Part shown: one piece after another, positions 2,829-26,803 of the stretch | How positions within the stretch are numbered: the stretch's first letter is position 1 | Layout of the letters: each line of letters opens with the position of its first letter | IMG/VR virus record: IMGVR_UViG_3300032240_000283 | Location: 1-48,875 of that record | Length of the DNA stretch: 48,875 nucleotides | Origin: a virus | Reading direction: 5' to 3' (one strand) | The notes under the pieces: model-generated | Database searches by the model: none | The model's input: the letters and a program-made list of their open reading frames with translations, nothing else | What the model was told of the DNA's origin: nothing | Program-made: the position numbers and the translations under genes

Positions 2829-4639
2829 CAGCAAAAGTATTTGCCATTGATACTCAGCCCGGCATTCAACGGGATGGTACGGTCTTTGACAAGCAGTTTT
2901 ATAACGATGGACGATGGGTCAGGTTTCAGCGTGGCCGTCCTCGTAAAGTGCTTGGGTATCGGCAAATAACAGCTCAAATTGCAGGCCCTTCAAGGGGCCT
3001 GTATGTTAATCCTCAGCCCAACTTCAATTACGTCTACAACGGTTATTCTGGTGGCTTGCAGGTCATTCCTATTACGAATAATGGAATTGGTGCTGGTGTA
3101 TCTGATTTTACTTTGTCAAACTTTACGGCTGATGATGCTAATTTATGGCAGTTTGACTCATTTTTTGACACAACAGGCGCAGGTGTTGAGAGTTTAGTGG
3201 CTCATCCGGGTAAAAACCTGTCTGATATTGCGAATACTGCAAATACTCCTGTTTTGATGGGTAACATTACTGGCACCACCATGACAGCTATGATGGATGG
3301 GGCTACACCCATTTCTGTATCTGGTGGCGTAGTTGTTCTTCATCCGTATGTTTTTGTCTTTGGCAATAACGGCTTAATCAAGAATTGTTCTGCGGGTGAT
3401 CCTACAGATTGGACTGGCCCAACAGCTAACGAGACAAACGTCGCTAGCTCAAAGATTGTGCAAGGTCTACCAGTCCGTGGTGGCTCTAACTCGCCTTCTG
3501 GATTGTTTTGGTCGCTAGATTCATTGATCCGCGTATCTTATGCGCCGACCACAGTAACTAGTGGAGCTACTACAACGACTCTGTACTGGCGGTACGATAT
3601 TATTTCTAGCCAGTCTTCAATATTATCTAGCCAGTCAGTAATTGAATACGACGGTATTTATTACTGGTGTGGAGTTGACCGCTTCCTGATGTATAACGGT
3701 GTGGTCAAAGAGATCCCAAACAATATGAACCAGAACTGGTTCTTTGACAATCTGAACTATGCTCAGCGTCAGAAGGTCTATGTCACTAAAGTTCCTCGCT
3801 ATGGTGAGATTTGGTGGTTCTATCCTCGCGGAGACTCTACAGAGTGCAATGACGCGATTATCTATAACGTCCGTGAACAGACTTGGTATGACGCTGGATC
3901 AGCTCTAGGGGCTCGTAGATCAGCTGGCTACTTCTCTCAAGTGTTCCATTACCCTATTAACGTAGGCTGGGAGATTATGGCTACAGGTGGAGTTAACGCC
4001 AATACCATTACAAACCAAGGCTCTGGTTATACCAACGGAACGTATACAAATAAACTCCTCACAGGAGGCTCAGGAACGGGCGCTACGGCCACGATTGTTG
4101 TTAGTGGGGGTAAGGTAACCACAGTAACAATAACGTCTCATGGGACTGGATATAAGACTACAGACATCCTTAGTGCAAGCCTGCCTGTTGGCTCTGGATT
4201 TCAATTATCTGTCACTAGCCTAATGAGTTTCGTATCTTTGTGGCAACATGAAATTGGCACTGACGAGATTATGAATGCTGAGGTTAATGCGATTGAAAGT
4301 TACTTTGAGACTAGTGATTTAGGATTAGTTTCTGGTGGCCCATCTCAGCCAAGCCCAGTTGGCGAAAACCGTTGGTTACATATAGAACGTGTTGAACCTG
4401 ACTTTGTTCAGTCTGGTGATATGGAGATGTACATTACTGGACGCCCTTTTGCTCAAGAGTCTGATGCAACGACAGGGCCATATGTATTTTCCCCAAACAC
4501 TGGAAAGATTGATGTTCGTGAGCAACGTCGTGAACTAAGATTGAAGTTTGTATCAAATACTTTTGGCGGTAATTATCAGTTAGGTCGTCTCTTGTTGAAC
4601 GCAAATGTTGGCGACGTCAGGGGCTATTCAAATGGCTAA
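2825..4639 (+). CDS. Tail nozzle / packaged-DNA stabilisation-like protein with inserted beta domain
   Basis: A 604-residue protein. The N-terminus (FYNDGRWVRFQRGRPRKVLG), the repeated hydrophobic strands ending in W or Y (WSLDSLIRVSY, IYYWCGVDRFLMYNGVVKEI, GEIWWFYPRGDS, TWYDAGSALGARRSAGYF) and the size fit the beta-propeller tail-needle/nozzle family that includes P22 gp10 and the SU10 nozzle. Residues about 389-464 break the pattern: they are a Gly-rich module (NQGSGYTNGTYT, GGSGTGATATIVVSGG, SHGTGYKTTD) of the kind repeated in phage fibres and bacterial adhesins. The gene lies directly after an adaptor and a fibre-like gene. Confidence 0.68.
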   Translation: MTAKVFAIDTQPGIQRDGTVFDKQFYNDGRWVRFQRGRPRKVLGYRQITAQIAGPSRGLYVNPQPNFNYVYNGYSGGLQVIPITNNGIGAGVSDFTLSNFTADDANLWQFDSFFDTTGAGVESLVAHPGKNLSDIANTANTPVLMGNITGTTMTAMMDGATPISVSGGVVVLHPYVFVFGNNGLIKNCSAGDPTDWTGPTANETNVASSKIVQGLPVRGGSNSPSGLFWSLDSLIRVSYAPTTVTSGATTTTLYWRYDIISSQSSILSSQSVIEYDGIYYWCGVDRFLMYNGVVKEIPNNMNQNWFFDNLNYAQRQKVYVTKVPRYGEIWWFYPRGDSTECNDAIIYNVREQTWYDAGSALGARRSAGYFSQVFHYPINVGWEIMATGGVNANTITNQGSGYTNGTYTNKLLTGGSGTGATATIVVSGGKVTTVTITSHGTGYKTTDILSASLPVGSGFQLSVTSLMSFVSLWQHEIGTDEIMNAEVNAIESYFETSDLGLVSGGPSQPSPVGENRWLHIERVEPDFVQSGDMEMYITGRPFAQESDATTGPYVFSPNTGKIDVREQRRELRLKFVSNTFGGNYQLGRLLLNANVGDVRGYSNG

Positions 4640-25059: not shown

Positions 25060-25265
25060 TGTTGCCAGAAAATTGTATTTCTTTGTTGAAGGCTGCTGCT
25101 TTATCAAAAGACATCAACAGAATTCAACGCGCTATAGATGTGGTTAAACTTTTATCTCCAGAAAGCTTCTTGCAAAATGAGCAAGAAATGAGGAAAAGAG
25201 TGTTTTATCACAGGCCATTTAGCGTTCATTGGTCTGGTGTTTATAAAGTAGATACAATTATTTAA
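25059..25265 (+). CDS. Small hypothetical protein
   Basis: A 68-residue protein (MLPENCISLLKAAALSKDIN, then RIQRAIDVVKLLSPESF). It starts at the TAATG junction with the membrane microprotein, with GGGGG upstream. A longer frame from 24999 is open but lies inside that gene. Function unknown. Confidence 0.6.
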   Translation: MLPENCISLLKAAALSKDINRIQRAIDVVKLLSPESFLQNEQEMRKRVFYHRPFSVHWSGVYKVDTII

Positions 25266-25285
25266 CTTAATAGAAAAAATACATC

Positions 25286-25483
25286 ATGTTATTAGCTTAC
25301 TGCGACTATATATCTCACGTTATACGTGACTCTCTTATTAAAGACCCAGACTGGCAGCTTGCCCACGTAGGCAATGTACAGTGGGATTTAGATAAAAATG
25401 GTGCGTTTAATAGCACAACAAAGGTATTGATTGTTGAAGACAACAACGGTAAAAAGTACAAGATAACTGTAGAAGAAGCTTGA
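25286..25483 (+). CDS. Small hypothetical protein
   Basis: A 65-residue protein (MLLAYCDYISHVIRDSLIKD, then KVLIVEDNNGKKYKITVEEA). Its C-terminal half has beta-strand character. There is no clear ribosome site. It is the last gene before the 500-base gene-free region. Confidence 0.52.
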   Translation: MLLAYCDYISHVIRDSLIKDPDWQLAHVGNVQWDLDKNGAFNSTTKVLIVEDNNGKKYKITVEEA

Positions 25484-25501
25484 AGGATAAGTTAAAATAA
25501 A

Positions 25502-25970
25502 GGCGTTGGGAAAGCTAGATATGGTGGAACGCGGAGATACGTTTTGCCCAGTGTGGTGAGTACCAACACCAAGACGCATGAAGATTGGGAATAAGGCAGA
25601 GACTGGCGTATATCGCTTGGTTGTCTAGGCCCCTCACCAGAGGGAGGTTTGCCGAGTATTCTGGTCATGCAATCTTCAGCCGTGTTGGTGAATGCGTAGG
25701 CTGATACGCTGTCGAAGGCTGGTGCGTGGATCGGGAAACCGTTAGCGAAAACCACACGCATGTCGGAGATCAGTACCGACCACTAACAACCTAGTCGGCA
25801 TGGGCCAATGTAGCATCGACACATGCGCTGGATAATCGTAACCAGCTGGGAAAGCGGATACTGATTGCGATACGTAAAGGCTAAGCCTAAGGCAAACGTC
25901 CGAAACAAACTCAGGCGCAGCGAGTACCAACTTTAAGTTTATAGTGACGCTGCTTTAAGTTTACAGTCAG
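25502..25970 (+). ncRNA. Candidate large structured non-coding RNA
   Basis: The 516 bases from 25484 to 25999 carry no credible gene but many helices. The long-range core is ACCAACAC (25562-25569) with GTGTTGGT (25682-25689), stacked on TGAAGATTG (25579-25587) with CAATCTTCA (25670-25678). Inside it lie GGCAG (25595-25599)/TTGCC (25649-25653), AGAC (25600-25603)/GTCT (25623-25626) and CCCTC-ACCA-GAGGG (25631-25644). Downstream are GTGCGTGG (25722-25729)/CCACACGC (25752-25759), a GAAA tetraloop hairpin (25732-25741), GTCGG/CCGAC (25762-25780), GCTGG/CCAGC (25827-25846) and GCAGCG (25917-25922)/CGCTGC (25948-25953). TGGG (25507-25510)/CCCA (25547-25550) encloses AACG/CGTT. The strand is presumed from gene direction. 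Size and phage setting recall GOLLD or ROOL RNAs, but I cannot match it to either. Confidence 0.68.
25931..25967 (+). repeat. Near-exact 15-base direct repeat at the 3' end of the structured region
   Basis: CTTTAAGTTTATAGT (25931-25945) and CTTTAAGTTTACAGT (25953-25967) differ at one base and lie 22 bases apart. The GCAGCG/CGCTGC helix encloses the first copy. A 10-base word, GAGTACCAAC, is also shared by 25558-25567 and 25922-25931. The repeats may be structural elements of the RNA or marks of recombination. Confidence 0.6.
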
Positions 25971-25999
25971 TTAAATCAATTACCTGTAAGGAGGGAAAG

Positions 26000-26233
26000 A
26001 TGAACGAAAATCAATACGAAGTTGCAAAGCTTCAACAAGAGCTCGACCGAATGGACACCCTAGGTTACGATCTGTACTGCAACCTAGAGGTTACAATTGA
26101 CGCACTAAATCAAATCCTTGAGGTTCCATATAATGCTGCGTCAGATGGCCGAGCCGTTAAAGAAATGGTAAGGATAGCCAAATGGGCGTTAGAAACCATT
26201 CTTGACGACAAGATTGCAGAACCTTCAAGTTGA
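26000..26233 (+). CDS. Small acidic helical protein
   Basis: A 77-residue protein (YEVAKLQQELDRMDTLGYDL, then AVKEMVRIAKWALETILDDK). A near-perfect ribosome site (AAGGAGGG) follows the structured region. Function unknown. The downstream promoter overlaps its stop codon. Confidence 0.72.
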   Translation: MNENQYEVAKLQQELDRMDTLGYDLYCNLEVTIDALNQILEVPYNAASDGRAVKEMVRIAKWALETILDDKIAEPSS

Positions 26234-26257
26234 CATTACACTATCAGCATCTAATTA
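26230..26257 (+). promoter_or_regulatory. Candidate promoter for the GIY-YIG/terminase operon
   Basis: TTGACA (26230-26235), a consensus -35 box, and TAATTA (26252-26257) are separated by 16 bases. It precedes the GIY-YIG gene by 18 bases and would drive packaging and head genes. It is one of the best host-type promoter matches I saw in the window. Confidence 0.6.
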
Positions 26258-26275
26258 CGCTGAAGGACTGAGAAG

Positions 26276-26803
26276 ATGTCTGAGCTAAATCAAAAACGGG
26301 CAAAGATTTATGGAATCCTAGACCCCGATACGAATTCCGTAGTTTATATTGGCAAAGCAAATAATGTTAATGCCAGATGGAAATCTCATTTAAGAGACTC
26401 AAAAAGAAAAAAAAGTCGCTTATACAATTGGCTAAATCAACAGCTTGCCGAAAACAAAACTATTAGAGTTGTTGAATTAGCATCATCTATACTTGATGAT
26501 TGGCAGACTCTTGAGAAAGATGTAATCGCCCAATACAGGGCTGATGGAGATCTTTTAAATATGTCAAATGGTGGAAATCAACCTTACGTCAACGTGGAAT
26601 CTTGTAGAAAAAATGCAATAAAAATAAATGAGCGTAGGAAAAATGATCCGTTATTTCGTCGCATTTGGGAAATGAAAAGGTCAATGGCGAGTTACCTCAA
26701 ACATGCAAAAAAAGATTCTGAGCATTATCGGCAGTTGACCGCCAAATTAAGATACGCAGCCAACAAAAGACCTGATTTATTTGGATGCTGGAGTGCTATA
26801 TGA
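26276..26803 (+). CDS. GIY-YIG endonuclease, probable free-standing homing enzyme
   Basis: A 175-residue nuclease. The signature is IYG (11-13) and YIG (24-26) in AKIYGILDPDTNSVVYIGKA, with R34 in VNARWKSHL and the catalytic Glu near E80 in WQTLEKDVIAQY. NMSNGGNQP follows as in many phage members. The C-terminal 70 residues are basic helices that probably bind DNA. It lies between the structured region and the small terminase gene, a frequent site for homing nucleases. No intron is evident in flanking genes. Confidence 0.86.
   Translation: MSELNQKRAKIYGILDPDTNSVVYIGKANNVNARWKSHLRDSKRKKSRLYNWLNQQLAENKTIRVVELASSILDDWQTLEKDVIAQYRADGDLLNMSNGGNQPYVNVESCRKNAIKINERRKNDPLFRRIWEMKRSMASYLKHAKKDSEHYRQLTAKLRYAANKRPDLFGCWSAI

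Follow-up and report, generated by a model that had tools for sequence, protein, structure and literature searches.

The question raised by this locus is what is encoded in the segment 25484-25999 of the window (the whole stretch of viral DNA that was analyzed, 48,875 nt), which a preliminary description had presented as a gene-free gap folding into a large, many-stemmed RNA, possibly of a new family. In agreement with that description, no ORF of at least 60 aa was found there on the sense strand, and three short antisense ORFs overlap the segment. No coding signal was detected: core lengths are spread evenly modulo 3 (59/58/54 among 171 elements) and stops are present in nearly all sense frames of the elements, so the element is not coding.

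The strands ACCAACAC (25562-25569), TGAAGATTG (25579-25587), CAATCTTCA (25670-25678) and GTGTTGGT (25682-25689) were located as described, together with CCCTC-ACCA-GAGGG (25631-25644) and a GAAA loop (CGG-GAAA-CCG). The folding energy (-155 kcal/mol; z = -1.05, 14 of 100 shuffled sequences being as stable) resembles that of shuffled DNA. On this measure alone, which the preliminary description had listed among its refuting conditions, the case for an RNA would be dropped; the comparative evidence presented below overturns that verdict, and we discarded folding energy as uninformative.

At gathering scores, Rfam 15 matched nothing anywhere in the window; at E<=1 it gave no match in 25200-26300, where GOLLD, ROOL, intron and ribozyme families were all absent; the earlier remark that the RNA could be assigned to neither GOLLD nor ROOL was therefore correct. 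No tRNA was found in the window by the Rfam tRNA model or by ARAGORN.

Relatives of the window RNA

When the gap was compared with phage and plasmid sequences by sensitive blastn, 13 weak matches were obtained, all to the same 23-32 nt around 25679-25715. No gene is annotated over any of them (two records lack annotation altogether), and many are near phage tRNAs. The loci share a common plan, in which a hairpin is followed by the P1 5′ strand, GGTGAATGCGYAGGCTGATRCGC ... GCCGGAGATCAGYACCGGC and the P1 3′ strand.

An IMG/VR scan that placed few constraints on the hairpin A stem gave at least 120 matches. Among GTDB species genomes, 81 stretches fitted a stricter pattern, and most of these belong to Gamma- and Betaproteobacteria. 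The core was also probed with a 30-nt sequence, which matched 228 phage records (including P1, CUS-3, HK633, PAJU2, PY54, EcP1 and Magnus) and approximately a quarter of the complete E. coli genomes (1,328 of 5,426), though megablast of one element of the Salmonella locus L009 against E. coli gave no match.

Judged from these matches, the core is common to hundreds of unrelated phages and prophages across the Gamma- and Betaproteobacteria, including E. coli phage P1, yet it has no Rfam entry, because the arms vary and only a scaffold of approx. 60 nt is conserved. The open-licence papers that we found deal only with STnc100 and PasD (see below), and none of them describes the branch to which the window RNA belongs.

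Anatomy and covariation of the RNA

We propose that the gap encodes a non-coding RNA built as the unit U-P0-X-core-D (all parts on the + strand), in which a hairpin, P0, stands upstream of a junction closed by P1 and holding two 5-bp hairpins with mutually pairing loops. Strand U (25562-25569) precedes P0, whose 5′ arm (25579-25587) keeps its position in the relatives L118, L062, L055 and L044. P0 with a score of at least 12 was found in 143 of 173 elements; between its 5′ arm and its 3′ arm (25670-25678) lies a variable apical region (25588-25669), which in the window includes the CCCTC-ACCA-GAGGG hairpin.

The whole conserved core (25682-25789) begins with strand X (GTGTTGGTG; 25682-25690), the 5′ strand of P1. 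This is followed by hairpin A (GCGTA-GGCTGA-TACGC; 25694-25709), an arm whose length and sequence vary among relatives (25710-25761), and hairpin B (GTCGG-AGATCAGTA-CCGAC; 25762-25780), and the core ends with strand D (CACTAACAA; 25781-25789), the 3′ strand of P1. The kissing-loop strand of hairpin A (GCTGA; 25700-25704) has its partner in hairpin B (TCAGT; 25770-25774). The covariance model R1 recognized one copy of the core in the window (77.9 bits, with a rough E value of 4e-17), the window sequence being itself one of the 52 sequences on which R1 was trained.

The compensatory changes that the preliminary description had proposed to seek in homologues were observed in every core helix, in the loop-loop pairing and in the ACCAACAC/GTGTTGGT pairing. 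In a set of 56 distinct cores, whose rows were chosen by loop motifs only and from which the variable insert was cut out, 96.1% of cells were paired (84.9% after shuffling) and 94 cells carried two-sided changes (23 after shuffling); none of 500 shuffles reached the observed pairing or two-sided-change count. The corresponding values for alignment A4 (52 sequences, insert kept) were 95.3% versus 87.2% of cells paired, and 82 versus 20.9 cells with two-sided changes (0 of 500 shuffles as high), the changes affecting 14 of 24 pairs and lending support to all four helices. Since the A4 rows were picked partly by pairing (P1 of at least 7/9), the 56-core set is the cleaner test of the stems. For both alignments, the shuffles leave sequence relatedness in, and slid-register controls likewise failed to match the observed values.

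Compensatory changes were found at four to five pairs of P1 and at four of the five pairs of hairpin B, as well as in hairpin A, which is 99.6-100% paired. The kissing loop was noticed first as a complementarity (GGCUGA/UCAGC) and then tested by scans for loops with other letters. Because sequence patterns were used to gather the elements, the consensus of loops and stems leans towards those patterns; in the loop-pairing tests, the patterns shut out the common loop letters. Natural variants keep the pairing (GCUGA/UCAGC, GUCGA/UCGAC, GCCGA/UCGGC and GUUGA/UCAAC), and 99.6% of loop-loop cells in A4 are paired, with two-sided changes at two pairs. This covariation shows the predicted core to be a junction closed by P1, in which hairpin A, the variable arm and hairpin B follow one another and the loops of A and B form a co-varying 5-bp kissing interaction.

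The long-range ACCAACAC/GTGTTGGT pairing emphasized in the preliminary description co-varies as well, but it has to be redefined as one of two mutually exclusive pairings, since X, which is complementary to U, also closes the core with D. U is located just 5′ of P0, and its pairing with X prolongs this hairpin. Among 60 elements with non-GTTGT stems, the mean U:X complementarity score was 5.30, compared with 3.69 (sd 0.12) after permutation. When only the five variable nucleotides were considered, at least four of them were paired in 46 of the 60 elements for U:X (permuted mean 15.4) and in 33 of the 60 for D:X (permuted mean 7.4), and each of these values lies above all 1,000 permutations. 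The permutations thus show that X is conserved for predicted pairing with either U or D, so that two exclusive folds are kept.

Constrained folds of a unit from phage P1 and of the window favored U:X by 7-8 kcal/mol, without counting the kissing loop that belongs to the D state; modeled in this way, a U:X / X:D switch is plausible. For a partner strand upstream of U, which would form a second closed module, there was no overall signal (5.15 versus 5.08 permuted); real arrays are nonetheless present in some phages.

The large, many-stemmed RNA of the preliminary description is thus upheld by covariation, but not over all 516 bases: the conserved RNA occupies mainly 25562-25789, and the flanks (25484-25561 and 25790-25999) are common to relatives only in part. 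In the downstream flank, the motif TGGGAAAGCGGATACTG (25847-25863) is also present at L062 1578-1594, and 25907-25931 is 92% identical to L062 1612-1636. This second motif, of the form GGGAAAGCGGATGCTGTG...CACAGACGCAGC, spans 25847-25863 plus 25907-25931 in the window and 1578-1636 in L062, and it was also seen at approx. 2650-2700 in L003 and around 650 in L056. It possibly belongs to a further kind of module in these RNA arrays, on the same transcript as the core.

Kinship with STnc100 and resemblance to tRNA

R1, which was built from A4, also matched STnc100-type copies in loci L009, L111, L165, L167 and L188, with E values (1e-6 to 5e-4) that are rough owing to a shortened calibration. Conversely, the STnc100 model (RF02076) found no match in window 25200-26300 at E<=1, let alone at its gathering threshold of 47 bits, and none on the element core in the other loci to which it was applied.

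The Rfam consensus of STnc100 nevertheless follows the same junction plan: a closing stem ending GGUG/CACC, the sequence GGUGAAU, directly after it a 5-bp hairpin with a 6-nt loop, central arms, and a 5-bp hairpin abutting the 3′ strand. Both RNAs are located in phages and occur in tandem; in phage P1, the element is directly followed by an STnc100-like unit. They differ in their central arms and in their loops (uGuGCG and AGGCA in STnc100, GGCUGA and AGAUCAGCA in the window element), and because of these loop sequences a 5-bp kissing loop is not evident in STnc100.

STnc100 is a small RNA encoded by prophages, and one copy of it has been confirmed by Northern blot (PMC5331693). The sRNA PasD (PasD1/PasD2), from prophages of pathogenic E. 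coli, has been reported to be located near antiterminator Q and to have structure in common with STnc100 (PMC13192938).

Since the Rfam STnc100 model misses the window, the window RNA was filed as a sister branch and not as a member. In our best reading it appears to be an unannotated branch of an STnc100-like superfamily, which would include PasD by the published comparison. What was suspected to be a new family is accordingly retained as an unrecognized branch, but of a superfamily in which the core model finds STnc100 and the junction plan is alike. The anatomy (four co-varying helices, a kissing loop and two alternative partners of one strand) provides a model for annotation, and it ties the window RNA to the puzzling STnc100 and PasD, with a function that is testable in P1, CUS-3 and HK633.

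In tRNA, a closing stem, arms and a variable arm follow one another in a comparable order, and the two flanking loops touch. The core has a closing stem, a 5-bp arm, a variable arm and a 5-bp arm abutting the closing stem, again with touching flanking loops; it differs from tRNA in its longer closing stem, the lack of T-loop or D-loop signatures, and the absence of a visible CCA end.

About a dozen elements carry T-arm-like hairpins at the apex of P0; a scan of all regions gave 49 matches, many of which are neighboring tRNAs, compared with 4 in antisense. The variable arm of one element (L092:3972-4028) holds a truncated tRNA without anticodon arm (34 bits with the tRNA model), and a hairpin resembling a tRNA anticodon arm is present further upstream (approx. 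3785-3810).

Genomic setting and proposed role

In phages of Gamma- and Betaproteobacteria, the family occupies the gaps between genes, with recurrent settings in tRNA clusters, between Q and holin genes, in repressor neighborhoods and near terminase genes (the window, L118 and L004). A tRNA was present within 1 kb of 20 of 104 elements, compared with approx. 10% for positions drawn at random from these loci, which is a tendency only, and a general tRNA association was rejected as a rule. The next gene downstream (orientations being assigned by an ORF heuristic) is on the same strand in 69 of 98 elements and on the opposite strand in 29. With regard to the intrinsic terminator that follows the STnc100 closing stem at a short distance, a sense terminator was found within 200 nt of 42 of 152 elements (14 and 19 in two controls); none was recognized 3′ of the window core. 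No neighboring protein family was common: the best downstream family reached 7 of 92 (at most 8%) and the best upstream family 10 of 62 (at most 16%), and a partner protein was rejected on these figures.

The explanation that we prefer, with a probability of roughly 0.58 for the whole of it (the U-P0-X-core-D unit included), is an accessory, probably trans-acting phage RNA with variable arms, which would form a branch of the STnc100 superfamily and carry a U/D switch; its function we infer. During transcription, U and X would pair first and extend P0. Once D has been made, X could shift to D, upon which the junction would close and be locked by the kissing loop. The RNA would be a product in its own right, co-transcribed with phage tRNAs or with the surrounding operon and often provided with its own terminator, and it may act in trans through the displayed variable arms, as a decoy for, or regulator of, host factors in RNA handling or defense. 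The tRNA pieces in the variable regions suggest a decoy role; this step is weak because such pieces occur in a minority of elements and in none of the window's arms.

An extended form of this explanation is tentative and rather improbable: a phage-wide scaffold with strand exchange from U:X to X:D, a kissing-loop lock and interchangeable arms, including tRNA fragments that would serve as decoys against host RNA-targeting defenses, with several copies in tandem with tRNAs in some phages.

Equally unlikely, in our estimation, is a cis-acting leader, in which the U:X versus X:D choice would be a co-transcriptional switch for attenuation, or for a modification of RNA polymerase like that by HK022 put RNA, allowing long phage operons and tRNA clusters to be transcribed past terminators. 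The position of the element just past Q/pR′ and ahead of the holin gene in HK633 and CUS-3, ahead of lysis genes in PAJU2 or beside repressor genes elsewhere would suit a leader, as would the terminators enriched just downstream and the conservation of two exclusive folds; the likeness to put is one of placement in phage leaders, which applies to some members, and many members are located outside leaders. The opposite-strand genes downstream, the Klebsiella phage RCIP0108 (where element and terminator lie between opposite-strand genes), the several tandem units and the lack of a common downstream gene family speak against it. The varied contexts, opposite-strand next genes, downstream terminators and missing partner protein thus favor an RNA that functions by itself rather than purely as a leader, with the same-strand majority of downstream genes leaving room for a cis role.

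Less probable still is an assembly of the GOLLD/ROOL kind, in which the A/B loops or the U/X/D strands would pair between molecules and the variable arm would lie either within the assembly or outside it. GOLLD and ROOL are found near phage tRNA islands, form multimers using kissing loops and have no known function, and ROOL has a variable disordered region (PMC12286853). The window family resembles them in its tRNA-island locations, its conserved kissing loop and its three mutually complementary strands, but it matches neither in sequence nor in covariance models, its core is far smaller (approx. 110 nt versus approx. 660 nt for ROOL), and the pairing results fit within-molecule and between-molecule pairing alike. 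We consider it similarly doubtful that the RNA acts by ordinary base pairing, as an sRNA or the precursor of one, with variable arms that would serve as seeds for mRNAs of the host or the phage; this has been proposed for STnc100 and PasD. Such a role would fit the relatedness to STnc100 and the RIL-seq targets and proposed seed of PasD (PMC13192938); against it, the arms differ widely among relatives and no single-stranded seed was seen to be conserved. That the RNA is mobile or catalytic (a group I/II intron or ribozyme) is barely credible. It would be linked to the GIY-YIG nuclease gene (PF01541, E 3e-7; 26276-26803) approx. 500 nt downstream of the core, which had lent the locus a mobile-element flavor in the preliminary description. 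That impression found no support, as intron and ribozyme families gave no match at E<=1 and the relatives are intergenic and adjoin many different genes. The GIY-YIG gene itself is flanked by the RNA and by the terminase small subunit gene, with no sign of an intron.

In phage P1, the ORFs annotated as the genes plp and upl lie antisense to RNA units (L130:2655-3224, corresponding to P1 69472-70041) and may be spurious; some other annotated hypothetical proteins may likewise be ORFs antisense to RNA of the window type. CRISPRi classed the P1 genes trnT, plp and upl, which lie over or beside the RNA units, as non-essential (PMC10695390); this speaks against a packaging role that is essential in laboratory conditions.

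In the phage contig L118, an abiF RNA (RF03085, 55 bits; 1269-1305) forms a terminator-like hairpin directly past the element. No AbiF-sized gene is obvious next to it in the 4 kb of sequence covered, and it is possibly an orphan antitoxin mimic.

Tandem units with STnc100 copies and tRNAs were found in phage P1 and in the Salmonella locus L009. In the latter, a prophage on a 473-kb record, at least six elements of both branches are present among tRNAs (L009:1370-4540).
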